Virus record (IMG/VR): IMGVR_UViG_3300025057_000010 | Span: 1-47,546 of that record | Length of the DNA: 47,546 nucleotides | Strand: one strand, 5' to 3' | DNA from: a virus | Shown: piece after piece, positions 2,156 through 47,546 of the stretch | Layout of the letters: the number at the start of each line of letters is the position of its first letter | How positions within the stretch are numbered: position 1 is the stretch's first letter | The notes under the pieces: generated by a model | What the model saw: only the letters and a program-made list of their open reading frames with translations | Told to the model about the DNA's origin: nothing | The model's database searches: none | Made by a program: the position numbers and the translations under genes

Positions 2156-2287
2156 ATGACAACAGAATCAACTTGTTTATTCAAGTATTTTAGAGATGGA
2201 ATTGAGTTATGGACAGGATCAGAAGATCTTGCCGGTAAAAGATCTGATACTGGTGAGTATTGGATTATTCATATTTTAAATGATTAA
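2156..2287 (+). CDS. small hypothetical protein (43 aa)
   Basis: Starts MTTESTCLFKYFRDGIELW and ends LND. It has an A-rich leader and a clean ATG, and the next gene's ATG follows its stop by 2 bases. The coding signal is weak because of the length, but tight packing with the next frame supports it. No function recognised. Confidence 0.5.
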   Translation: MTTESTCLFKYFRDGIELWTGSEDLAGKRSDTGEYWIIHILND

Positions 2288-2289
2288 AT

Positions 2290-2454
2290 ATGATCAATAC
2301 AATTTCAATTTTAGTATTGCTGTTCAACCTAAATTGGCAGAACAGCATAGATAATCCTGCAAATGAAGAATTTGTAGAAGAGGTAGCTTTTAATCTTGAT
2401 ATACCTGTTGAAGAGGTTACTCAAGAACAGTTTAATGAAAGATATCTGAAATAA
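2290..2454 (+). CDS. small hypothetical protein with hydrophobic N-terminus (54 aa)
   Basis: Starts MINTISILVLLFNLNW, a short hydrophobic stretch that could be a signal or membrane anchor. An acidic tail with repeated VEEV follows. It sits 2 bases after the 43-residue gene and is the last gene before the structured gene-free region. No family recognised. Confidence 0.5.
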   Translation: MINTISILVLLFNLNWQNSIDNPANEEFVEEVAFNLDIPVEEVTQEQFNERYLK

Positions 2455-2460
2455 CATTAA

Positions 2461-2570
2461 AACTACCTGTTAAAGGTAGACAAAGTAATTGGGAGAGTAA
2501 AGCGGGATGTAAGTCCTTAAGGCTTTTAATTTCACAAGAGCATGCATCTGCAAGAGACTCTCCCAAACTT
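2461..2570 (+). ncRNA. candidate structured RNA, unit 1
   Basis: No gene fits here. A lead hairpin (CTACCT 2463-2468 with AGGTAG 2474-2479) is followed by a perfect 10-bp stem, TTGGGAGAGT 2489-2498 with ACTCTCCCAA 2557-2566. Inside it lie two smaller helices: AAGC 2500-2503 with GCTT 2522-2525, and GCA 2540-2542 with TGC 2549-2551. The layout is a three-way junction. The stem is much richer in G and C than its surroundings. I know no RNA family with this sequence. Strand is inferred from the neighbouring genes. Confidence 0.55.
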
Positions 2571-2578
2571 CTTATAAT

Positions 2579-2780
2579 ACTACCTGTTGAAGATAGACAA
2601 AGTGAGACACCTGCCTCTTAACTGATTAAGGAAAGCATAAACGGGCTCACTAACACAAACCAAGTAACGTGTTAAGTCTATTGGATGGTGTAAGATAGCA
2701 GAGGGGACTAACCCTTGAATTAGGGAGCGAAAGCATAGAACTGATGTATAGCTTGAACACTCCACTTGGGGGCAGGTAGT
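2579..2780 (+). ncRNA. candidate structured RNA, unit 2 (about 200 nt)
   Basis: The ends close with an 8-bp stem, ACTACCTG 2579-2586 with CAGGTAGT 2773-2780. Inside are AGTGAG 2601-2606 with CTCACT 2646-2651, AACAC 2652-2656 with GTGTT 2669-2673, CTAT 2678-2681 with ATAG 2695-2698, CCCT 2712-2715 with AGGG 2722-2725, a GC-GAAA-GC mini-hairpin, and CTCC paired across ACTT just before the closing strand. Its first 25 bases match unit 1 at 23 positions. No tRNA, RNase P or tmRNA hallmarks are visible. It ends about 17 bases before the next likely start codon, so a leader or riboregulator role is also possible. Confidence 0.55.
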
Positions 2781-2796
2781 GTTTTTTATAAAAAAT

Positions 2797-3033
2797 ATGA
2801 TTATGGGAAATTTAAAATGGATTTTATTAGTGATGGAGTTACAAATAGCTTTATTGGGCTATTTAGTATTTTCATCTGAATTAAAAAAAAGAGATTCTCA
2901 AGATGATTTTAAAACAAACTATGAAATAGACTTAAAGGCGGATCATTACCTAATTAAAGGTGCTTATGACGGTAAAGTTCATAGAGTTGAATTTAATGAT
3001 TTAGAAGAATGGGTTATTAATGATAATATATGA
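2797..3033 (+). CDS. small membrane protein
   Basis: The frame could open at a GTG at 2779, but that lies inside the closing stem of the RNA structure, so ATG 2797 or 2803 is preferred. MGNLKWILLVMELQIALLGYL is one N-terminal transmembrane helix, followed by a charged region of about 50 residues that probably faces the cytoplasm or periplasm. Its stop overlaps the next start (ATGA), so the two are translationally coupled. No family recognised. Confidence 0.7.
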   Translation: MIMGNLKWILLVMELQIALLGYLVFSSELKKRDSQDDFKTNYEIDLKADHYLIKGAYDGKVHRVEFNDLEEWVINDNI

Positions 3034-3857
3034 TTATGAAAGAAGGAAAAGTAACATTTTTAATGGGAGAAAGAGAATATCAAAGATATTATGTAGATCT
3101 TATGTCCCGAGATGATGATTATAAAAGATTGAAATATTATAATCACGGTGTACCACAGTTTTATTTTGCAACAAAGAAAGAAACTGATACTCATATTTAC
3201 TGGAGTGGATGTAGCAAAAATCCAATGTTTGAAAATAGTAAATTGTTTTTCAAACATAATACACATGACGGAGCCACTTATGATAAGCAAAAGCAGACTC
3301 TAAAGATTTGGTTTGGTAAAAGATTGTGTAATTTAGAACATAGTGTAAAAACTGATATTATATCTCAATTTGCACCTTGGTTGGGGGAAGGACATGGTCA
3401 AAATCAATTACAAGTTATGATCAATAACAGAATTTTAAATAAAATTGCTAAAGGTAAAGTTAATTCTAATGAAGAATTAGTTGCTGAATTTTGCAAGAAT
3501 CAACCTTATAAAAGATTAAATATAGATTCTAATTTATTTACTGAGGTCTTAACATGTGGAGCATGGTTACCAGGTAAAGATCTAAGAACAGTTTTAGAAG
3601 CTACTGAAGATGTTAATCGTATGCTTAGATGGATATTAGTTAATGGAAGACTTGATTCTGACATTATAAATTTAAGCAGAATAGCATTAAGTATTGACAA
3701 AAAAGTTCCTACAAACCTCTCTCACGAAGAGAGAAAAAGTCTTAGTAAAGAATACTATTCTATATATAAAAATAGATTAGAAATTTATGAGGGTTTAGAA
3801 GGTTCTTTTCGATCTTATGAAGTTATTCCTGACGATGACGAAGATTTACCTTTTTAA
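3030..3857 (+). CDS. hypothetical protein with SSB-like acidic C-terminal tip
   Basis: 275 residues, coupled to the membrane protein upstream by ATGA. I do not recognise the body, which is basic and aromatic-rich in its first third. The last residues are PDDDEDLPF. Bacterial single-stranded DNA-binding proteins end in the same kind of tip (E. coli SSB: DDDIPF), which docks many DNA-repair and replication enzymes. The tail suggests either that this is itself a DNA-binding protein or that it mimics SSB to recruit or block host enzymes. This is inferred from the tail only. Confidence 0.85.
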   Translation: MIMKEGKVTFLMGEREYQRYYVDLMSRDDDYKRLKYYNHGVPQFYFATKKETDTHIYWSGCSKNPMFENSKLFFKHNTHDGATYDKQKQTLKIWFGKRLCNLEHSVKTDIISQFAPWLGEGHGQNQLQVMINNRILNKIAKGKVNSNEELVAEFCKNQPYKRLNIDSNLFTEVLTCGAWLPGKDLRTVLEATEDVNRMLRWILVNGRLDSDIINLSRIALSIDKKVPTNLSHEERKSLSKEYYSIYKNRLEIYEGLEGSFRSYEVIPDDDEDLPF

Positions 3858-3867
3858 TATTTAAGAT

Positions 3868-4086
3868 ATGGATAATAATATAATTACTTCTGTATTAGGA
3901 TTTGACTTTAATGTCAATTTAGTTGATATAAATGATAATCCTGTAAAATTTGGAGTGGGTAGAACAGTCTATCCCAATGTTTATAGAAAACATGTAAATA
4001 TTAGACAGTTTGATAAAAAATTCTTCACAAGTTTTAATGAAGAACTGCTGCAAAAAATTAAAGATTACAAGCACTTAAATAGTTAA
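3868..4086 (+). CDS. hypothetical protein (72 aa)
   Basis: Opens with an ATG 10 bases after the previous stop and ends 2 bases before the next gene. It has a mixed beta-like composition (VLGFDFNVNLVDINDNP) and a basic centre. No motif or family recognised; the tight packing supports it as a real gene. Confidence 0.7.
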   Translation: MDNNIITSVLGFDFNVNLVDINDNPVKFGVGRTVYPNVYRKHVNIRQFDKKFFTSFNEELLQKIKDYKHLNS

Positions 4087-4088
4087 AT

Positions 4089-4511
4089 ATGAATATCAGA
4101 GTTGAATATGAAGATACAGATGTTGCCAAAATATTATCAGAAATGATTAAACATCATAACAAAGAAGAGCTTGTAAAATTATTTACTCCTTTAATATGCG
4201 AGCATAGTGATGCTGTTCAAAGACTTTTTAAATTAAATATTCCAGGTAATAAGTTACCTAAAGTTTTATTAAACGGTACTATATGTAAAGTTCCCGTTGC
4301 TTCTTTAGGATATGAGGCTAATGAAAAGTTAATTAAGGAAAAATTTGCGGATCAAGATGATAATGTTCCTGTTAAGATTGCAGAATTTCGTGGTTATCAC
4401 GATTATGTTAATTACAGAATTGAATATACTAATGTTTTAGATGATGGAGAAATGGTTACAGCAACAACCAGTGTTAAATTTGCAGAAATAACAGAAATAG
4501 AAGAATTTTAA
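4089..4511 (+). CDS. hypothetical protein (140 aa)
   Basis: Starts MNIRVEYEDTDVAKILSEMI. The C-terminal half has alternating hydrophobic strands (YVNYRIEYTNVLDDGEMVTATTSVKF). It ends with an acidic tail EITEIEEF. It is the last gene before the terminator at 4549. No known function. Confidence 0.75.
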   Translation: MNIRVEYEDTDVAKILSEMIKHHNKEELVKLFTPLICEHSDAVQRLFKLNIPGNKLPKVLLNGTICKVPVASLGYEANEKLIKEKFADQDDNVPVKIAEFRGYHDYVNYRIEYTNVLDDGEMVTATTSVKFAEITEIEEF

Positions 4512-11382: not shown

Positions 11383-12023
11383 AAAAAGAACATCAAATAA
11401 TAATGCTTCCAAGTGAGAATTGGTCAAGTATTGTTCTCAGTAACAAAGGAGAATTAGAATATACCTACGGAGAAAAGGTTAACGGATTCCAAAAAAATCT
11501 CTACATACTCTCAGATGAAGAGATCAATAAAGGAGATTGGGTTGTTTTTAGAGCTAATGGCAGAGTAGATGGTGAATGGATTTTGGACCAAGCTAGAGCA
11601 GATGGTCAAGCATATAAGATTCAAAGAAAAATCATAGCCACAACTGATGCTGAGTTATTACCGTATGGATATTCGGCAATGGAAGCACAGGATGAAGGGA
11701 AATATTATCCTGCATTTATATCCCAACACATCATAAAAGCCTATGTTAAAAAGCCATTTGATGAAGTAGAGGTTGAGTATCTAACAAAGCTTAAAAAAGG
11801 GACTGATTTGGGCTATGAGTGTAACTATATTGTGCCTGATAAACCAAAACTAAACCAAGACGGAACACTAGCTGTTAGTTTGGTTGAGGAGAAGTCTGAA
11901 CTTGATAAGTGTAAGGAAAGCTTATGGTATTTTATGACTAACTATGCTACTATAGACGGTAAGCCATTTAAAACCTCAATGAGTGAAGAAGAATGTGAAC
12001 AATGGATTAAAGAAAACTTGTAG
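11379..12023 (+). CDS. hypothetical protein (214 aa)
   Basis: Starts MKKEHQIIMLPSENWSSIVL. Residues 1-130 are strand-rich (GDWVVFRANGRVDGEWILDQ). The C-terminal 50 residues end in CEQWIKENL, whose codons form the first copy of border repeat A. TAG stop. Looks like proteins of Bacteroidetes phages and prophages, but no function is known to me. Confidence 0.75.
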   Translation: MKKEHQIIMLPSENWSSIVLSNKGELEYTYGEKVNGFQKNLYILSDEEINKGDWVVFRANGRVDGEWILDQARADGQAYKIQRKIIATTDAELLPYGYSAMEAQDEGKYYPAFISQHIIKAYVKKPFDEVEVEYLTKLKKGTDLGYECNYIVPDKPKLNQDGTLAVSLVEEKSELDKCKESLWYFMTNYATIDGKPFKTSMSEEECEQWIKENL

Positions 12024-12025
12024 TT

Positions 12026-12187
12026 ATGGAAGAAAAGATTGGAAAATTACTTGAAGAACATTGGGAAGAAAACGGATTCACAAGAGAATCAACAATGAAT
12101 TTTATTGAGGAATTTAAAAGTGCTATGTCTGACCACGCAATAGTAGTTGACATTGATTACGTTTCTCACGAAGTAGATTATGATTAA
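12026..12187 (+). CDS. small acidic hypothetical protein (53 aa)
   Basis: Starts MEEKIGKLLEEHWEENGFTR and ends SHEVDYD. Flanked on both sides by border repeat A, which supplies its leader. Acidic and helical. Too short for any family call. Confidence 0.6.
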   Translation: MEEKIGKLLEEHWEENGFTRESTMNFIEEFKSAMSDHAIVVDIDYVSHEVDYD

Positions 12188-12202
12188 AGAAAACTTGTAG
12201 TT

Positions 12203-12427
12203 ATGAAGATGATAACAATTTACTTAATGGGATTTTTATACTTCTCCTTTTTAGCATTACCGCTAATGATAATTGTATTCTTCCCTATATTACCAATAAT
12301 GCTATTAGCATTTCCTATGACGGTTATGAATGAAGGCACAACTAATGTTCATTGGACACAAAAGCCCTATCTATGGTGGTTTAAAAATGTGTGGTTAAAT
12401 GCAATAAAATTAATTGGTGTTAAATAA
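12203..12427 (+). CDS. small membrane protein (74 aa)
   Basis: Starts MKMITIYLMGFLYFSFLALP. Residues 3-42 form one long or two short transmembrane helices, followed by a tryptophan-rich tail (HWTQKPYLWWFKNVW) likely to lie at the membrane surface. Leader is border repeat A. Function unknown. Confidence 0.7.
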   Translation: MKMITIYLMGFLYFSFLALPLMIIVFFPILPIMLLAFPMTVMNEGTTNVHWTQKPYLWWFKNVWLNAIKLIGVK

Positions 12428-12442
12428 AGAAAACTTATAGTT

Positions 12443-12829
12443 ATGGAAAAAGAATTTGTACCGTATGATATAGCATTAGCTATGAAGGAGTTGGGATTTG
12501 ATGAAAGTTGTGTAGCTCACTACAGAGATAAAGAAACACTCACGTTGTTAGGGTATGGTATTGTAGGAATATCTTACTCTGAATTTAAGGATGAAGGACA
12601 AGTTCTTGCCCCACTATATCAACAAGCGTTTAGATGGTTTAGAGAGAAGTATAACATTGATGCTAGGTTTCATACCTATACCCATCATAAAGAAGGTGTT
12701 AGAACTGATTGGATGTGGGATTATATTGATGGGAAGAAGACTTCATTTGATGGACACGAAAAGTCTGACAAAGAAGCACAAGACGCTTGTCTTAGAAAAC
12801 TAATTGAAATTGTAGAAGAAAACTTGTAG
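12443..12829 (+). CDS. conserved hypothetical protein of Bacteroidetes mobile elements (128 aa)
   Basis: FVPYDIALAMKELGFDESC at residues 4-22 and PLYQQAFRWFREKYNIDARF at about 53-72 are the hallmarks of a protein I recall as very common in Bacteroidetes phages and prophages, with no known function. The C-terminal helix ends EIVEENL, encoded within border repeat A. Confidence 0.8.
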   Translation: MEKEFVPYDIALAMKELGFDESCVAHYRDKETLTLLGYGIVGISYSEFKDEGQVLAPLYQQAFRWFREKYNIDARFHTYTHHKEGVRTDWMWDYIDGKKTSFDGHEKSDKEAQDACLRKLIEIVEENL

Positions 12830-12831
12830 TT

Positions 12832-13098
12832 ATGGAAAAATTAAAGAAGATATTATTAGGAATGGGTTATTTAACCTGGATGATCTGCAACATTGCAGTA
12901 ATATATGGAATAGGATGGGGAGCAATTAAGCTCTTAGAATCTGGATCAGCAGGAGAATTTTTACTGAAGCTTGCTGGTGGTATGATCATGGTGTTGTTAA
13001 TGGTGATATTGAGTATTCTATGCTTAGGATTGGTTGCAATGCTTTTTGGAGATGAAAGGATGGCAAATAAATTTGATGATATATTTCCTGACATGTAA
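12832..13098 (+). CDS. small two-helix membrane protein (88 aa)
   Basis: Residues 6-36 and 47-70 (AGGMIMVLLMVILSILCLGL) are clear transmembrane segments with a short soluble tail (ERMANKFDDIFPDM). It could be a holin or inhibitor by size and topology, but early-block position argues against lysis. Last gene before the structured gap. Confidence 0.72.
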   Translation: MEKLKKILLGMGYLTWMICNIAVIYGIGWGAIKLLESGSAGEFLLKLAGGMIMVLLMVILSILCLGLVAMLFGDERMANKFDDIFPDM

Positions 13099-13438
13099 AA
13101 TAGTATTTACCAAAACAGGGATTTTGTAAAAAGTATTTAAGTGTGACCTTCGGGATGGCAATGTCATGTTAAGGTCTGGGAAGCGTAGTAGAAGTGGCTT
13201 ATTATGGTAGGACTTACCAAATAAGTGAATTTTCTTGTTAAGCGTGGAGACAGATGGGCAACCCAATGGTGACTGAAGGAGCAAAGTGTATGAGATCTTC
13301 TTGGTAATAGAGAAGACGGAGAGCCTAATACACAGTGTTAAGTTAATCAGTTAGTGTGGCTTATTCTTATGGAAAAAAAGAATAAGCAGAAACCTGCTCT
13401 GACTTAACACTACTTAAATTTATTAAAGAAAAACAAAG
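13099..13438 (+). ncRNA. candidate structured RNA region (about 340 nt)
   Basis: No gene fits. Clear helices in order: TTTA plus CAAAA with TTTTG plus TAAA (13106-13130); GACCTT 13145-13150 with AAGGTC 13171-13176; CTTATT-A-TGGTA 13198-13209 with TACCAAATAAG 13215-13225 (11 bp, one bulge); TGGG-CAA-CCCA 13255-13265; TCTTCT 13296-13301 with AGAAGA 13311-13316; AGTGTTAAGT 13334-13343 with ACTTAACACT 13402-13411 (10 bp), enclosing GCTTATTCTT 13359-13368 with AAGAATAAGC 13378-13387 (10 bp). No tRNA, rRNA or known riboswitch motif is recognised. Strand inferred from neighbouring genes. Confidence 0.6.
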
Positions 13439-13546
13439 ATGAAAAAAATAATTAAATGGTTTGAATTAAATTTAGGTTGGTTCTTCATAAATGGAAGAAA
13501 ACAAGAGCAATGGAATGAATATTTAAAACAAAACAAAGATGAGTAG
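13439..13546 (+). CDS. tiny hypothetical protein (35 aa)
   Basis: MKKIIKWFELNLGWFFINGR onward, an amphipathic aromatic helix possibly membrane-associated, ending QNKDE. It follows the structured region directly and opens the border-repeat-B series. TAG stop. Confidence 0.5.
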   Translation: MKKIIKWFELNLGWFFINGRKQEQWNEYLKQNKDE

Positions 13547-13709
13547 CTACGTTTCAGTAAAAATATCTCCAACAGAATATAAACATTTCCCCGTTGATGA
13601 ATATGTTCTAACCTATATTAAACAATTGGAAAGTGCAATCAACGATGAACGTGTTAGAGATACTTTAAAAGAATTATATCCAAGATTAAATCAAAACAAA
13701 GATGAGTAA
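13539..13709 (+). CDS. small hypothetical protein (56 aa)
   Basis: MSSYVSVKISPTEYKHFPVD onward; a short helix LTYIKQLESAINDERVRDTL follows. It ends NQNKDE through border repeat B and overlaps both neighbours by 8 bases. Looks like a fragment-sized folded protein; no family. Confidence 0.58.
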   Translation: MSSYVSVKISPTEYKHFPVDEYVLTYIKQLESAINDERVRDTLKELYPRLNQNKDE

Positions 13710-13857
13710 AGAAACATTGGAAGAATTGTGTTATCAATTATATATGGTAGGAAACACTGATTCATTAAAAAGCATAACAAGAGGTAGAGATCAAGTCATG
13801 ATAATATTTAATGAAAGGCTTAAAACTCTAACTAAAAATCAAAACAAAGATGACTGA
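13702..13857 (+). CDS. small hypothetical protein (51 aa)
   Basis: MSKETLEELCYQLYMVGNTD onward, helical, ending TKNQNKDD through border repeat B. TGA stop overlaps the next start by 8 bases. No family recognised. Confidence 0.58.
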   Translation: MSKETLEELCYQLYMVGNTDSLKSITRGRDQVMIIFNERLKTLTKNQNKDD

Positions 13858-14104
13858 AAAAGAAGTACAACTATTAGGATTTGAAAGAAGAGATGAATCT
13901 GAAGAACCTAATCCATACTACTATTATGTCTACAAAATTGTGGATGGGGTAGATTTTATTACTTCTGCTAATGATGAAGTAGAAAATGGAGAATGGTCAG
14001 TAGAATTTTTAGAAGCAAATCCTAAGATAATATTTACAAAATTTGAAGAAGTTCAAGCATTAATTAATTTGCTTACAAAAAGAATTAAACCAAGACAAAA
14101 ATGA
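13850..14104 (+). CDS. hypothetical protein (84 aa)
   Basis: MTEKEVQLLGFERRDESEEP onward. YYYYVYKIVDGVDFITSAND with ENGEWSVEFLEANPKIIFTK gives a strand-rich core and a C-terminal helix; the LLGF...YYYYV...FITS pattern is common in Bacteroidetes mobile elements. It ends PRQK on the variant of border repeat B; the ATG after it opens only a 7-codon frame. Confidence 0.68.
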   Translation: MTEKEVQLLGFERRDESEEPNPYYYYVYKIVDGVDFITSANDEVENGEWSVEFLEANPKIIFTKFEEVQALINLLTKRIKPRQK

Positions 14105-30997: not shown

Positions 30998-31015
30998 TTT
31001 GTTAATTTGTTATCA

Positions 31016-31046
31016 GGGGGAGCCTTCGGGTTCCCCCTTTTTTTTT
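31016..31046 (+). terminator. intrinsic terminator with UUCG loop
   Basis: GGGGGAGCC (31016-31024) pairs with GGTTCCCCC (31029-31037) around TTCG, a very stable tetraloop, then nine T. It ends the plus block; read from the other strand it lies just past the last minus-strand stop and may also slow transcripts from that side. Confidence 0.93.
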
Positions 31047-31049
31047 CCT

Positions 31050-31196
31050 TTACGTCCAATTAACTTGAATACTAACTATTGTTAGAAAGAGTTCAAATGT
31101 ATGATACTCTATTTGCTCATCAGGAGCTGTATACCCCCAACCTAAAAGAAACCGGTCATGCGGCCAATTCAAAAATATAGATGCACTATGAAACAT
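31050..31196 (-). CDS. tiny aromatic protein, last gene of the minus block (48 aa)
   Basis: MFHSASIFLNWPHDRFLLGW onward, ending VSIQVNWT. The LNWPxDRFLLGW and PDEQIEY parts recall a small protein of unknown role found in many tailed phages. It begins on TAATG with the previous gene, so translation is coupled. A strand-rich fold with a conserved tryptophan is likely. Confidence 0.72.
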   Translation of the reverse strand: MFHSASIFLNWPHDRFLLGWGYTAPDEQIEYHTFELFLTIVSIQVNWT

Positions 31197-31324
31197 TATC
31201 TACCTTGCCCTCTATAGGCTTTTTTATAATTCCTTGATTTCTTGGAATTAGATGTTTTAGTTTTAGAATGTATCCCTGGACGAGATATTTTATTCTTTTT
31301 TAAAGTTTTTACTGTTGTTGCCAT
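31196..31324 (-). CDS. tiny very basic protein (42 aa)
   Basis: MATTVKTLKKNKISRPGIHS onward, ending NYKKAYRGQGR; nearly one third lysine or arginine. Probably binds DNA, RNA or the capsid interior. It starts on TAATG with the stop of the 2616-residue gene, behind a strong Shine-Dalgarno AGGAGG. I recall similar small basic genes in this place in crAss-like phages, function unknown. Confidence 0.75.
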   Translation of the reverse strand: MATTVKTLKKNKISRPGIHSKTKTSNSKKSRNYKKAYRGQGR

Positions 31325-39175: not shown

Positions 39176-42100
39176 CTATTTACATTTAAATGGATCTTCT
39201 TCCAGCTCCATCATTATTTCTATTTCCTCATCTGTAATTGGTTCTACAGATTTTACTAATTCATTAAAACTATCAAACTCTAAAGATCCAGGATTCAGAT
39301 ATCCAAATTCTTCATAAAGCCTCTTAGATAAATATACAAATAATTCTTCAGGCATAAGTTTAGGATCACCATACCCTACTGTTGAAAATGCTATAGGCAA
39401 GTTTTGTTCTAATCTAGCATTCATTTCATCAATTCTTCTCTCCCACAAACCTTTTATTGAATTAAATTTATCAGGACTTAAGTCTTGCATGTTATCATTC
39501 TTCTTCAACATGTCTGTAGGAAGAGATATGTTTCCGGCAGAATCTGCATAATGTAATGCTGACTGACCACCAAATACTTTTAAAGTATCTTCTTTAAGAC
39601 CAAGAATAGGTATTGAATATACCATAGCTACATCAGAGTTATCTTTTGATACTGTTTTGTATTTATCATTATTCCATTCAGAATCATTAAACTCATAAAT
39701 GTTTTCTCTTGAAGTTGTATTAACACCAACTCTTTTAGTTTCTTCATCAACCACTTCAAGTTTTAGCTTTGATAAGTAATCTTTAAAATTATTTTTAGTG
39801 TAGTTATAAGAACTGTTAACTGTCATAAAACTAGTCATATACTCCTCCATTACATTTTCAGGATTACTTTCTAAGGCTTTGATAAACTTTTTAGACTCTT
39901 GAGTCATTATGCTCAAAAAGTCTGACATATCTAACACTTTCATTAAGTTATACTTAGTGTTATTAAAACCTGTCTGCATAAACCCTACTAAAGGAAGTAG
40001 TCTAAAGAACTCTGATATCTCTAGATTCTCTTGAGGATCTGAAGATTTGATTACAGTAACATCAGCTAAATCTTTAAGATTTTTTCTATAAAGATTTGAT
40101 GTAGTACTTGTTAAATCTTTGTCTCCAAAGAATATATTAAATACTGTGTTCTTAGAATTAGAATCTAAAGTTAACCAGTTTAGAACTTCATATTCTGATT
40201 TTAGATTTTTATTCTTTAAAAGTATATTGTTAAGCTTAACTGCATAAGCACTTTCTTTATTTTCAAATAACTGATGCGGATTAAGTAAGTTTTCTAGCGC
40301 TCTTTCAGCAATAAACTTCTCATATACATATCTAGCTTTCTTTTCTTTAGATAGATCTTTTATCTCATCTAAAAGTAAATCTGCTTTAACTGACGGTCTC
40401 TGAAGAACTTCCTCAAAAGAATAAATACTTCTGAGCAATTCTCTTTCTATGACAAAATTTAAGAACTCTGCTCTACCCTCATTCTTATCTTTCAAAAATA
40501 CACCATAGTCTACGGCATACAAACCTCTATTTAGATAAGAGTTTGGTTCATCAGTATCTTTAGCCCAAAGCTTTTTATCATAATCTTTCTTTATTTGCTT
40601 TCTGTCAACATACATTACTACGTTTCCACTTGCATCTTTAACTGCAAAAGCTCCAGTCTTCTTTAACTCTTTAGCTAATTTTACAGGAACAGTCTCTTTT
40701 AAAGTATAAGACTTATAAGACTCTCCCATTTTATACTTACGTACAGCATTTTGGAAAATATAAGATACTAAATCGTTTCTAAAGGTTTTAACAAAAAGCT
40801 CTTTTTGACTTTCTCCAAAAGTTTCTTTAGCTAAATCATAAAGTTGATTTTTATTTTGGATTAAGAAAGATGTTATTTCCGGATGGAATCTTAATTGGAA
40901 AAGTGTTTTACTCAAATCCAAAGCAAGTTTTCCATTAAAGAATGAACTAATTACTGAATCAGTCTCTAATGCTTTTAATAAGTCTTGATCAATCTTAGAT
41001 TCATACAATAATTCATCTAAGTTAGCTTCAGTTTCTTCAACAGCATATATATTAGACTTGGTACTAGTATCAGGATTAGTATTCATTTTTAACTTAGTTA
41101 ATCCTGAGATTTGCTGCTCTATAGTAAGGTAATGCAAGAACATTGTTTTAGACAAGTCAGATCCTGCAACTTCTTCATCTGTTTTAAAATCTTTTATTAG
41201 CTGATACATTTCATCTGTAGTAAACTCAGACTTTTCTCTATCTTCAAAAAATTCAGTTTGTGAACTTTCAAATAGATCATATCTAGCAAAAGTTTTAAGT
41301 TTTTGTAATTTAGGATCAATGTACTTAGCTAAAACATTATTAGCAGATACATGCCTTACTAAACCTAAACTAGAAGGCTTTTTACCTAAGACATCTGCAA
41401 AAGTTGATTTAGCAAGTCTTTGTTCTTCTACATATTTTCTTACAAGAGGTTGTGATACAAAGTATATAGCATCCTTTACAGGAACTCCTGTTTTAATAAG
41501 ATATAATAATACTGGGGCTACCTCATAGTTACCCTGAATGAAGAATATCCAAGCGTCTTTTTCTACGTCCACCCAACCATTCATCATTTGAGAAATGATA
41601 TCTGCTATTTTATTTTCATTATTAGCATCATATCTACTAGCAATTGAAATAACTTCTTTACCATTCTTAACTACAGAATTGTGTTTTAAGAATAGTCTGC
41701 TCATTCTTAGTTGCTTTTTGACTCCTGATACATGGAAATATGAGTTAGGCATTGTTGCACCACCAGGAATATTTAAAGAGTTAATCAAAGAATGGAATGT
41801 GTTTTCAATAGCTCCTAAACCTAAAGTCTTTTTACCTACTACATTTGACTCATGTTTATATAAGTTATACCCAGCCTCTATAATTCTTGTAGGACTAATG
41901 ATTCTTTTTTGTTTACCGTCTTCATCAAGAGGTGTAACATTTTCTTGAGTCATTTTATTTTTCAATGGATTGTAATCCATTACATACTGAGCTAGATCAT
42001 CTGCTATATCTTTTAACAGATAAATACCGTTAGGTTTTATCAGAGATACAAAGTTTTGAGGTAATGCTAATATATTTCTCATGTCATCTATTAGCTCATT

Positions 42101-45100
42101 TTCCAAACCTGCCTTTTGCATCTCAAATAAGAAATCAGTATTCTCTTCAAGCTCTAGTAAGGTATTTAACTCTTCTTCAAACTCTTCCATGCTTGCAGAA
42201 AATTTCTTAGATGTTTTACCATCTGAGTCTATGTTAGTCATAAACATAGTAAGCTTATCAATATCAAAGTCAGCTCCTGATTTGGCAACAATTTCAGCCG
42301 GAGGAACAATAATATTTCCTGCTTGTGGCGGTAAGAAGTGGTATACTTCAAAGAATTCCATTGAGTTAAGACCCTGAACTGGAATACGAGCACCTACCAG
42401 TGTTATTGCTTTTCTAGCATTTTGATCATTAGCATCTAGCCAAGCATCATCTTTAATCTTTTCATTTAGTCTTTCTAATGATTCATTCATTAAGATGTTA
42501 CCTTCTTCATCATATACACCTATTGTTGAATTTTCATCATACATTAAGTTTAAAAGATTCTCATAATCTCCTTGAAGTGCTATCATTACTTTAGCTGCAG
42601 CTGTAGTACCATCAGCATTCTTTTGATAATTTGGTAAAAAGTTTGACCCAGCATACTTTCTAATTTCTTTGTTTGTGGCTTTCTTAAGTTTTTGTAGAGG
42701 TGTTGTAAAACCACCAGCGAGCATAGAAGAAGCAACTTGAACAAGAGGTTCTCCTTTTACTTTTTGTTTAATTACTCTTTTGTTAATTAAAGAAAGCAAA
42801 AGCTTTTCTATCTTTTCTGCTTCAGGATGTAATGATAAGTCATAAAGAACATTACCACTTTCATCTGTATCTATTATTTGTAAAAGATCATCACCTAAGA
42901 TATCTTCTCTTTTTAAATTATTTCTTACTAACTCTACTAACTTAGTAGTACTTTCTTTATTAATTGGTTCGTAAGATCCTTTAACTTCTTTAAATCCTAT
43001 TTCTGTAAGTAGTTCTAGTTTAACAAGTTCAGTATATTCTGATACATCATCTAAATACTTTTTAACTAGATTATTAACTACTTTTGATTCGTCTTTAGTA
43101 GCAATTACACCTTTTTCAAAAAGACCTTCTAAAACAAGCTTACGCATCTGTGTTGAAAAGATTGATACTCCTTTGTATTGCTTGTTTACTTCAGTTTGAT
43201 TTTTTAAATATTCTGCAAAAATTATATTTTTTGTAAAAGTCTTAGTTGTGTAATTACCATCCTTATCAAGGACTGCTTCACCATTACCTAATTGGTTTAC
43301 TTTAGATCCTGATTCAAATAAAACATAATCTAATTGTTGATCCATCATGTCTTTATTCAGCTGCTCTAAAGCTGTGTTTTCCATAACAAACCCTGGAATA
43401 AGAGGCATTAATGAAAACTTATGGAATGAATTCACAGGAAGACCCTCTGCTTTTATATTACCAAAATACTGAACTTTATATGGTGGAAAGTATTCAATAA
43501 TATCCTCTGCTGATACTTGCTCTTTATTTACAATTTTTTGATAAAGTCTTTCTTGTTCTTTAGACCAGTTATCCTCTAAATTCTTTAACATTCTATATGA
43601 ATCTAAATTTATATAACCTTGTCCATCACCAACAGCCATCTTTTTATATTCTTCCATGGCTTTTGTAGCTAATTCTTTAGCTTTCTTTTTATCCTTTATC
43701 CTATCATAAATATCTTTTTCTAGTATTTTGAAATATTCATCATAGTAAATAGACTCAATTTCATCTTCTTTTATAATACCTGTATGTAGAGTTCCGTCAT
43801 AAGCTCTTCTCTTATAACCTTCACTAACTGTATAAGCAGCTCCAAAGTTTACAGAGTTAATAAATGCTTGAGCTCTTAAATCAGCTCTGAATGATCTACC
43901 ACCCGCAGCAAGACCAGCATTTCTTTTATGGAATTCTTCTTTTACATGATTATACTGAACAGCATCTCCGTAAGCCAATATGATAGTTTCAAACTTATGT
44001 ATGAAAGTATTATAAGTATAAGCTTTTGCTACAGTCTCATAGATCTGAGCATCACTTAAACTACCATTATCTATATTTTGTAAGATACCTTCATTAACAT
44101 ATGGATTCTTTAATAATCTATCTAAGTTATCTTGAGTATCTAGATTAAAATATTCTATTAAATCATTTTCTACTTTAATGCTTAGGTCTAAATTATCCTT
44201 AAAGATGTCAGCAAGATTAAAATCTCTATTGTTTTCTACACTATCTTCTATAAGATCATATAGCTCTTCTTGCACTTCTTTGGTCAGCATGTCATCAAAT
44301 ATGGTAAATGCTGCACCAGCTTTAGTAGTTTTACCATCTTTTCTGACAACCTCTTTATTGTAAGCAGCATAGTTAGCAAACTGCTTCTCATTTTTTAAGA
44401 ATCTGAATATTCTGTTAGCTTCCCCAGCTAAATAATCTTTTACTATTTCTACACCTCTTTGCTCACCATAGTTATTACTTGTTGGTCTAAATGCTTCTAT
44501 ATCAATGTAGAGCTTATCTTTAACTTTACCGTCATAAGTTTCAATAGGTGTTGTTGCAGTAGTAATACCCATTGCTGTATTCTTAGAGGCGTGTCTCATA
44601 AATTCTTCAACACCATTAAGCAGCATAGTATTTAACTCTTGTAAGAATTTACTTGTTACATCCGTTGAAGCAGTTAATGATCCTATATTACTTTGAGAAG
44701 AATTTTTAGTAACTAATTGAGTACCTGCTACATTTTGAAGTAAAAGCTTTGCATTTTTCTTTTTATTACCATATCTGGTATCTGTCATTGGTACATTTAA
44801 ATAGAAAATACTATTTAGTAATTTACTAAACGTAGACATAGTGTTGTTTGCTTCTGATAACCAGTACATATGCTGGAATCTCTTGTTAGGATCCGCATTC
44901 TCCATACCAGTTAGCTCTTGCCAACTTTTAGCTTTATTAATAGAAGTTACTATACGTGTAATTGTACTATCTAAGAAGTGTTCCCAAACTCTACTTCCTT
45001 CAGGATTTGTAACACTAAAGTTTGAATAGCTGTCAGAGTATAGCATTTGTAAACGTGCTAGTTTTCTTACAGCAGAGTCTACATCAGTTTGTTTTTCATC

Positions 45101-47546
45101 TTTAACCTTAAGAGAAGAAGGCAGTCCTTTTCTTAAATACTCTATAGGATTTACTTTAAAGTTAGTTGCATCCGCAAGCATTTGGTCAGAAGCATTTTCA
45201 GGAACTGCATTTACTCTCTTGACCATCTCAAAGATTCTCTCTACTTTAAATATCTTTGAGAAGTTATAAGCAGGATCCGTAGCAATAAGTTTAATTGTAT
45301 GACTTGTAGTATCTAGCTCAATACCTAATGCTGCTAAAAACTCTAAAGATTTCTTTTTATTAAACTTACCTTTTACAGAGAAGTCTTTTATTATCTTAGC
45401 GGTATCTAACATATTTCTACCATATTCATCAGTAGTAATATATTTATTAGACTCAGCATCAGCTAAAGTTGTATTTGCTGACCAGTCAGATATCACACGG
45501 AAAACATCATATTCTGTTCTTGCAAGTGTTGACTTATATACAGCCTTTTTGTTTTCATATTCTTTATCAATTCTTAACTGAATATATTTTAGTCTAGGCT
45601 TTTTAAGATCTTGCCAAAAAGAAGTTTCTGTTTTAAATTCACCTTGCGAGTTAATTCCATTTGCAGGATTAGGTAACAATTGTAAAAGTTGATAAAACTC
45701 TGGATAATTCTCTGCTTGCTCCAAGAGTCTGCCGTACATTTCAGTATAATCAAAAGATCCTTCTAAAATTTTAGCTAACCTTTTCCATGTTATATCAAGT
45801 GGCTGAAGCTTTTTATATCCATAAGGGTCTACATCATAAACAGGCTTCCCGTCTACAACTTCTTTTACTTTAAATACTGCAGTTAGCAATGATAAAGTAT
45901 CTAAAGAAGCTACTTTTTTAGAAGAAACAAGATTACCTCCAGAATCTTTAAATATTCTAGACTCTTGAATATTTGTTGGATCATCATCCTCATCTTCTTC
46001 AAATGATTCTTGTAGAAGTTTAAATGCAGAGTTATCCAAATGATAAGCAACAACTCCACTTTTTTGTTTACCTGATAAAGAAAGACCTATGTCCCCGTAA
46101 TTATCTTGAATTTTAATTAAAAGATTTAATCTTTCTGTTAATTCTTTTTCTAACTGAATATCTTCAATAGAAGGAGTTTCTTCTTCAATTAATCTAGGAG
46201 ATAGATCTTGCAAAGCAGCCGCAACCTCTGTGATCTGCTTTTTGATCCCTTCTGCTATTTGAGTATAGAATATTTTTCTATTAGCAGGATTAGTAAGTAT
46301 AGAATTTACACTAGCAAACTTTTTACCTAAATTGGCTGTTTGTATTTGAGCAACTAAAGCAGAATCTAATAAGTCTTTAGCTTTCTGACTTTCTTCAATA
46401 GAAAATTCCGGAGACTTATCAACGTTTTCTTTTGTCAACCCAATAGTATCTTTTGACCTATTTAATTTACCAAAGATTACATTTTTTGTAGAAGGTTTTA
46501 AATTTTGTAGAATCTCAGGATTTTTATCAGCTCTATAAAGTTGATAATAAAGTTCTTTAACTCTAGGGATATCTCTTGGTCTAGTAAAATCTTTTCTTGT
46601 TACTTTAGAGAACATTTTTCTTAAGAAAGTTCCCATCTTAGCAAATATTCTACCTACTATACCAGGAAACTTCTTTTTAAATTTCATATAAGACCTATAG
46701 TCTTCTGCAAGATCTTCTTCTATATCTCTATATAAATCCATAACAGATTCATAAGTTCTGTTCTGATACTTACCAAGTTTTGCTACTGTATCGTATAGAT
46801 CTATTTTATCTTCTTTAGTTAAGAACAACTGACTAAATACGTGATAAGCTTCGTGATATAAGTCTACTGTTGTACCACCATCAGCTTCATAAAGTATTAC
46901 ACCTTTTTCAACAAAAGTTGCAAAGGCATCAGAGTTAACTACTTCTGTTACTCTAGTAAGGTATTCTTTACCTAAAACTTTCCCAAAAGTATTATCCCAC
47001 CACTCCTCAGCTTTTCTCTTATCAGCTTTTGTAGTAAATACTCTATCTAAAAATGATGACATAGTTTTACTTCTATCAAGAAAACTGCTTTGATTACTAC
47101 TGATAAGATCAGTGATAGGTACAGGAGCAATTATCTTAGGAAGTGCTTTAGCTTTAGTAGAACCTTTTGCTTTAGTTACTTTCTTAGCTTTACGAGTTTT
47201 AGTTTTACTTTTACCCTTAACTTTTATACCAAATCTTTTAGCAAAATTTTTCTTACCTTTTACATAGTAGTAACCTTGACCAGTTTTTCTAGGTCTTACA
47301 TGTGTATAAAACTGCAAGGCGTTAATTTGCACAGGTATACCTAATTCACTTGCAGCTTTAGCAAAAGCTTCTTCAACACCGGTTTCTCCTGTAAGGATTA
47401 CTGATTCAATAGGTTGAGCCAAATCTGGACTATTAACTACTTTTTCTAAAAGCTCATAGATATAATCATCAATAGTATCCTGATTAATTTTTTTCTGATT
47501 TAACTCATATAAATTACTAGCAACTAAGTTTAATGTAGAAACTTCA
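39176..47546 (-). CDS. giant virion RNA polymerase protein, partial at the right edge
   Basis: Over 2780 residues in view; the frame stays open beyond TTG 47422 to the edge, so the start is outside. Numbered from 47422: residues 1-35 (VILTGETGVEEAFAKAASEL) recall SLOG/molybdenum-carrier Rossmann folds, then a very basic stretch; HEAYH (190-194) is a zincin motif; around 1690-1730, GARIPVQGLNSMEFFEVYHF and SGADFDIDKLTMFM (D1718, D1720, D1722) match the beta-prime catalytic loop NADFDGDQMAV of RNA polymerases and the crAss-like enzyme of phage phi14:2. It probably enters the cell with the DNA and transcribes early genes. Confidence 0.92.
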   Translation of the reverse strand, partial: EVSTLNLVASNLYELNQKKINQDTIDDYIYELLEKVVNSPDLAQPIESVILTGETGVEEAFAKAASELGIPVQINALQFYTHVRPRKTGQGYYYVKGKKNFAKRFGIKVKGKSKTKTRKAKKVTKAKGSTKAKALPKIIAPVPITDLISSNQSSFLDRSKTMSSFLDRVFTTKADKRKAEEWWDNTFGKVLGKEYLTRVTEVVNSDAFATFVEKGVILYEADGGTTVDLYHEAYHVFSQLFLTKEDKIDLYDTVAKLGKYQNRTYESVMDLYRDIEEDLAEDYRSYMKFKKKFPGIVGRIFAKMGTFLRKMFSKVTRKDFTRPRDIPRVKELYYQLYRADKNPEILQNLKPSTKNVIFGKLNRSKDTIGLTKENVDKSPEFSIEESQKAKDLLDSALVAQIQTANLGKKFASVNSILTNPANRKIFYTQIAEGIKKQITEVAAALQDLSPRLIEEETPSIEDIQLEKELTERLNLLIKIQDNYGDIGLSLSGKQKSGVVAYHLDNSAFKLLQESFEEDEDDDPTNIQESRIFKDSGGNLVSSKKVASLDTLSLLTAVFKVKEVVDGKPVYDVDPYGYKKLQPLDITWKRLAKILEGSFDYTEMYGRLLEQAENYPEFYQLLQLLPNPANGINSQGEFKTETSFWQDLKKPRLKYIQLRIDKEYENKKAVYKSTLARTEYDVFRVISDWSANTTLADAESNKYITTDEYGRNMLDTAKIIKDFSVKGKFNKKKSLEFLAALGIELDTTSHTIKLIATDPAYNFSKIFKVERIFEMVKRVNAVPENASDQMLADATNFKVNPIEYLRKGLPSSLKVKDEKQTDVDSAVRKLARLQMLYSDSYSNFSVTNPEGSRVWEHFLDSTITRIVTSINKAKSWQELTGMENADPNKRFQHMYWLSEANNTMSTFSKLLNSIFYLNVPMTDTRYGNKKKNAKLLLQNVAGTQLVTKNSSQSNIGSLTASTDVTSKFLQELNTMLLNGVEEFMRHASKNTAMGITTATTPIETYDGKVKDKLYIDIEAFRPTSNNYGEQRGVEIVKDYLAGEANRIFRFLKNEKQFANYAAYNKEVVRKDGKTTKAGAAFTIFDDMLTKEVQEELYDLIEDSVENNRDFNLADIFKDNLDLSIKVENDLIEYFNLDTQDNLDRLLKNPYVNEGILQNIDNGSLSDAQIYETVAKAYTYNTFIHKFETIILAYGDAVQYNHVKEEFHKRNAGLAAGGRSFRADLRAQAFINSVNFGAAYTVSEGYKRRAYDGTLHTGIIKEDEIESIYYDEYFKILEKDIYDRIKDKKKAKELATKAMEEYKKMAVGDGQGYINLDSYRMLKNLEDNWSKEQERLYQKIVNKEQVSAEDIIEYFPPYKVQYFGNIKAEGLPVNSFHKFSLMPLIPGFVMENTALEQLNKDMMDQQLDYVLFESGSKVNQLGNGEAVLDKDGNYTTKTFTKNIIFAEYLKNQTEVNKQYKGVSIFSTQMRKLVLEGLFEKGVIATKDESKVVNNLVKKYLDDVSEYTELVKLELLTEIGFKEVKGSYEPINKESTTKLVELVRNNLKREDILGDDLLQIIDTDESGNVLYDLSLHPEAEKIEKLLLSLINKRVIKQKVKGEPLVQVASSMLAGGFTTPLQKLKKATNKEIRKYAGSNFLPNYQKNADGTTAAAKVMIALQGDYENLLNLMYDENSTIGVYDEEGNILMNESLERLNEKIKDDAWLDANDQNARKAITLVGARIPVQGLNSMEFFEVYHFLPPQAGNIIVPPAEIVAKSGADFDIDKLTMFMTNIDSDGKTSKKFSASMEEFEEELNTLLELEENTDFLFEMQKAGLENELIDDMRNILALPQNFVSLIKPNGIYLLKDIADDLAQYVMDYNPLKNKMTQENVTPLDEDGKQKRIISPTRIIEAGYNLYKHESNVVGKKTLGLGAIENTFHSLINSLNIPGGATMPNSYFHVSGVKKQLRMSRLFLKHNSVVKNGKEVISIASRYDANNENKIADIISQMMNGWVDVEKDAWIFFIQGNYEVAPVLLYLIKTGVPVKDAIYFVSQPLVRKYVEEQRLAKSTFADVLGKKPSSLGLVRHVSANNVLAKYIDPKLQKLKTFARYDLFESSQTEFFEDREKSEFTTDEMYQLIKDFKTDEEVAGSDLSKTMFLHYLTIEQQISGLTKLKMNTNPDTSTKSNIYAVEETEANLDELLYESKIDQDLLKALETDSVISSFFNGKLALDLSKTLFQLRFHPEITSFLIQNKNQLYDLAKETFGESQKELFVKTFRNDLVSYIFQNAVRKYKMGESYKSYTLKETVPVKLAKELKKTGAFAVKDASGNVVMYVDRKQIKKDYDKKLWAKDTDEPNSYLNRGLYAVDYGVFLKDKNEGRAEFLNFVIERELLRSIYSFEEVLQRPSVKADLLLDEIKDLSKEKKARYVYEKFIAERALENLLNPHQLFENKESAYAVKLNNILLKNKNLKSEYEVLNWLTLDSNSKNTVFNIFFGDKDLTSTTSNLYRKNLKDLADVTVIKSSDPQENLEISEFFRLLPLVGFMQTGFNNTKYNLMKVLDMSDFLSIMTQESKKFIKALESNPENVMEEYMTSFMTVNSSYNYTKNNFKDYLSKLKLEVVDEETKRVGVNTTSRENIYEFNDSEWNNDKYKTVSKDNSDVAMVYSIPILGLKEDTLKVFGGQSALHYADSAGNISLPTDMLKKNDNMQDLSPDKFNSIKGLWERRIDEMNARLEQNLPIAFSTVGYGDPKLMPEELFVYLSKRLYEEFGYLNPGSLEFDSFNELVKSVEPITDEEIEIMMELEEDPFKCK

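Follow-up and report, generated by a model that had tools for sequence, protein, structure and literature searches.

A noncoding insert near-identical in a crAss-like phage and a relative is a candidate accessory RNA cassette

The window analysed here is a virus record from IMG/VR (47,546 bases, classed as linear) with a noncoding insert at positions 13139-13432 (+ strand). The insert has sharp borders, is present in some genomes and absent from others, and is nearly identical in two phages whose core genes have diverged and whose genes downstream of it are unrelated. The reading that we prefer, tentatively and at slightly less than even confidence, is that it is an accessory noncoding-RNA cassette (predicted RNA of about 280 nt) of a crAss-like phage, which would be exchanged as a unit, transcribed from a module immediately upstream and active in trans.

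The phage had been taken as crAss-like in a preliminary description of the sequence, and this is supported by the giant protein encoded at 39176-47422, whose matches (E to 2e-24) are confined to records of crAss-like and similar gut phages. Several of the matches are annotated as putative RNA polymerase, i.e. the giant protein is related to the crAss RNA polymerase proteins. Other genes in the record encode a DNA polymerase, a primase, a DnaB-like helicase and a uracil-DNA glycosylase. A tRNA and tmRNA search of the window gave none, whereas two phage loci found via a 128-aa protein (L049 and L017, about 2200-4450) contain dense tRNA clusters.

The insert lies between an 88-aa membrane-protein-like gene (12832-13098, + strand) and a small ORF starting at 13440. 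No ORF of at least 60 aa was found on the + strand of 13098-13440, which confirms that 13099-13439 is gene-free, and the stretch shows no sign of the remains of a coding gene. An antisense ORF (13024-13284, 86 aa, TTG start), which overlaps both the 88-aa gene and the insert, was dismissed as mechanical. The preliminary description had found 340 gene-free bases outstanding in this genome; the length is not unique, as 2457-2778 and 30998-31323 are similar. It had also correctly placed the stretch between two zones of border repeats, type A ending at about 12839 and type B beginning at about 13428.

Further noncoding stretches were seen in the window and in other phages. The gene-free stretch at 2457-2790 is G+C-rich (40%, z -2.5) and contains a repeated unit, AACTACCTGTTrAAGrTAGACAAAGT, at 2458-2486 and 2575-2603 (90% identical); at its 3' end CAGGTAGTG is complementary to ACTACCTG and is followed by TTTTTT. 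It resembles a further phage RNA that carries a terminator of its own. L192, the record of L163, has a related ACTACCTG terminator hairpin. A strongly folding noncoding stretch at L098 1450-1570 (z -3.7, no Rfam name) has relatives in L131 (95%) and in L017/L018 at about 11476-11565, between tRNA genes.

The 88-aa gene served as a marker for the same locus in relatives, and nine such loci were found in IMG/VR. It is followed by a module at 13095-13140 (+ strand) in which GTAAAA(T)AGTATTTA occurs twice, at a distance of 31 bp here and of 31-32 bp across the genomes with the module. A profile search of the relatives detected the module in L162, L086/L166, L167, L165 and L170, and also in L185. 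In L162, L166/L086 and L167 the gene for the 88-aa protein is followed by a module of about 46 bp that closely resembles 13095-13140, in L170 it is found farther along, ahead of another small ORF, and in L185 it is in an unrelated context. In every genome found, the module precedes either a small ORF or this insert, and, except in the window and L165, no more than about 20 bp separate it from the start of the next ORF. Since the module also precedes protein genes in L162, L166/L086, L167, L170 and L185, the duplicated 15-bp motif is probably a promoter or operator pair. The form seen in L170 and L185, TTGAC...TATTTG, resembles, with an inexact fit, the Bacteroides promoter consensus TTTG / TAnnTTTG (PMC7366714).

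Behind this module the window and L165 (record 3300025057_000038) share the insert, one copy per genome, with 290 of 294 positions identical. The adjacent 88-aa gene is identical at 224 of 267 DNA positions (77% amino acid identity; Fisher p 5e-11 for insert versus gene), and the core genes of window and L165 show 65-73% DNA identity. The insert is absent from the relatives L162, L163, L166, L167, L168 and L170. At the left join, GTATTTAA continues into GTGTGACC in the two carriers and, in L166, where the slot is empty, into ACCAAAAC. At the right end both copies extend to TTATTAAAGAAAA, beyond which comes a type A border (CTTTTAGTTATG) in L165 and a type B border (ACAAAGATGA) in the window. 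In other words, the right edge in the window (13421-13442, + strand) combines type A (TTAAAGAAAACTTGTAGTTATG) with type B (AAACCAAAACAAAGATG) in a hybrid border, which is as expected if cassettes are exchanged. The genes 3' of the insert are unrelated in the two phages, so no single downstream gene goes with the insert; ORFs begin 8-25 nt past its 3' end in both. From the sharp edges, the hybrid border and the unrelated downstream genes we conclude that the segment behaves as an exchangeable cassette. The near-identity of the copies may reflect recent transfer instead of selection, the two being inseparable with two such similar copies.

The border repeats stand at gene starts in the window at 12009-12839 and 13428-13861 (type A TTAAAGAAAACTTGTAGTTATG, type B AAACCAAAACAAAGATGA) and recur before small genes in relatives; they appear to be crossover points of the cassette region. 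A different hairpin-bearing noncoding piece (z -1.6) occupies the same slot behind the module in L167 (3308-3465). A noncoding piece of 55 nt is identical in L165 (3264-3320) and L167 (2758-2812), two phages from one sample, and lies on opposite sides of the 88-aa gene, a further sign of shuffling.

All three stems named in the preliminary description are present where it placed them. The 11-bp stem with one bulge is CTTATT-A-TGGTA/TACCAAATAAG; the two perfect 10-bp stems are nested, the outer one (AGTGTTAAGT/ACTTAACACT) at 13334-13411 and the inner one (GCTTATTCTT/AAGAATAAGC) at 13359-13387. Two perfect stems of at least 10 bp within 80 nt never occurred together in 1000 dinucleotide shuffles; among the 340-nt windows of this genome, 0.7% have two. 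The G content is 26% in the cassette versus 16% in the genome.

In the predicted fold, a multibranch domain (13147-13279, + strand) is closed by CCTTCGG/CTGAAGG (pair probabilities 0.83-0.94) and contains the bulged hairpin at about 13197-13226 (0.93-1.0 at its base). It is followed by a GTGTAT/ATACAC hairpin (13286-13333, + strand; 0.84-1.0) and by the long 3' hairpin (13334-13411, + strand), in which the outer stem reaches 12 bp counting flanking pairs; the outermost predicted helix is 13136-13142/13412-13418. The stability of the whole fold is only modest and by itself would not support the claim: z is -2.35 for the 340 nt, -3.55 for 13133-13420, and for 13135-13418 -2.9 on the + strand and -3.6 on the - strand, against a mean of -1.24 (sd 1.48) for 284-nt windows of the genome, several mostly coding windows of which reach -4 to -5.8. 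The L165 copy folds more weakly (z -1.6).

The collection of homologues that the preliminary description proposed thus comes down to this one further copy, and covariation is not measurable because the copy is 98.6% identical. Of the four differences, three fall at unpaired positions of the predicted fold; the fourth disrupts an A-U pair of the apical 10-bp stem (13359-13387) and is uncompensated. Two such similar copies yield no covariation, so the structure stands as predicted and the function as putative.

Distant blastn against phages and plasmids gave no further copy. Scans with exact and gapped patterns, which covered IMG/VR and 85,000 prokaryote genomes, returned only the L165 contig, as did a covariance model (R1) applied to 40 whole viral records and to related loci totalling about 1.6 Mb. 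Diverged homologues are easily missed by pattern scans, so the insert may be more widespread. Pattern matches in L171-L175, L177 and L188-L191 were rejected as chance by reading and, where it was run, by covariance-model search; in L177 there is an exact match of 20 nt to the insert and the model scores nothing. The Rfam search that the preliminary description suggested gave no match for the window at the gathering score. The group I and group II intron models were also without a match, and those of ROOL and GOLLD left the stretch unmatched even at E 10. The low-scoring Rfam hits, FopS sRNA among them and most of them on the - strand, lie far below the cut-off, at chance level up to E 10. Structured stretches noticed in L049, L017 and L175 are mostly tRNA genes by Rfam or reading.

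According to our preferred reading of an exchangeable trans-acting RNA, the cassette would occupy the slot behind the duplicated-motif module and be transcribed rightward from it, and the RNA would fold into a multibranched structure with a long 3' hairpin. In its exchange between phages, recombination would take place near the module at its left end and at short gene-border repeats at its right end, in the manner of the neighbouring small protein genes. The RNA would then act in trans (host take-over, counter-defence or regulation) and not on the adjacent genes; trans action is favoured because the insert is independent of the downstream genes and is exchanged like a gene. The transcription, its strand and start, the fold and the trans action are what we infer here. 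No terminator follows the last hairpin on the + strand, so a discrete RNA would need processing or would stay within a longer transcript. A -10-like role for the TATTTAA of the module would leave the outermost helix untranscribed, which counts against this reading. The preliminary description had suggested a phage noncoding RNA, which stands as the best reading of the insert; it does not hold for the whole stretch, as the first 40 bases or so are a separate module that relatives carry without the remainder. None of the evidence points to the ribonucleoprotein or decoy roles that were also put forward.

The main rival, which we judge unlikely on balance, is a cis-acting leader of an operon starting at the module, i.e. 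a structured 5' region that alters elongation or termination, as HK022 put does, or the translation of the following small genes. Such a leader fits the position nearly as well as a trans-acting RNA: the insert is directly behind a promoter-like module (the promoter role being probable), no terminator lies behind it, ORFs follow within 8-25 nt in both genomes, and putL too is situated a short way downstream of an early promoter (PMC9378689). Against it, the following genes differ between the two copies, relatives carry the same module without such a leader, and the insert is about four times the length of put (about 70 nt). It is quite improbable that the insert encodes no present RNA function and is a mobile DNA piece or an intron or retron relic. 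The sharp borders, the presence/absence pattern, the high identity between diverged phages, the group II-like GTGTG start and the TTAA-type flanks (a TTAA insertion) would all suit such an origin; nevertheless, there is no group I/II intron, HEARO or other Rfam match, exact terminal repeats or a clear target duplication are lacking, each genome has a single copy, and the border repeats account better for the right edge. Moreover, no reverse transcriptase (PF00078) was found in this record and three related records (G000, G003, G001 and G004), which may be fragments.

Equally improbable, in our view, is that the insert is filler, i.e. recently exchanged noncoding DNA with helices partly due to chance. 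The fold z lies within the range of the coding windows of this genome and is -1.6 in L165, and only two copies were found, all of which filler would explain; the rarity of two perfect 10-bp stems together, the high G content and the position directly behind the module speak for something more. Very small peptides, e.g. MGNPMVTEGAKCMRSSW or MEKKNKQKPALT, are the least probable product. In the window as in L165 the two short frames are uninterrupted, and the neighbouring cassettes are very small genes, but neither frame has a type A or type B start border ahead of it, together they span less than one third of the cassette, and with four changes there is no readable coding signal.

If a noncoding cassette does move like a gene behind a shared module, the accessory region of crAss-like phages trades RNAs besides proteins, and the cassette offers a defined target of 280 nt. 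With low confidence, we also consider that it represents a new family of trans-acting phage RNAs, a selectable cassette among crAss-like phages in an RNA-or-gene slot behind a duplicated operator, used against the host in regulation or counter-defence. It is new as an RNA, since no named RNA family matches. Phage noncoding RNAs without an assigned function are an already known kind (ROOL, GOLLD, phage sRNAs); for crAss-like phages, the literature searched yielded no RNA to which a function has been assigned.

ROOL and GOLLD, structured phage noncoding RNAs without an assigned function (Rfam; PMC12286853), are comparable to the insert, whose structure is predicted. They are larger (many GOLLD exceed 800 nt), are often near tRNA islands and have covariation support (PMC12286853), whereas the insert has about 280 nt, no tRNA nearby and no Rfam match. 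The HK022 put RNA (about 70 nt, two stem-loops, putL just downstream of the early promoter; PMC9378689) acts in cis on RNA polymerase to suppress termination. The insert has no sequence relation to put and its module mostly precedes genes without such an RNA, yet both are structured RNAs, predicted in our case, directly downstream of a promoter (a probable one here) in a phage. The third comparison is with the trans-acting sRNAs encoded by phages (reviewed in PMC12197685). A search for antisense targets within the phage gave runs of at most 16-18 pairs (G-U allowed), which is chance level with no sensible target; the likeness is that of a predicted accessory phage noncoding RNA, possibly aimed at host RNAs.
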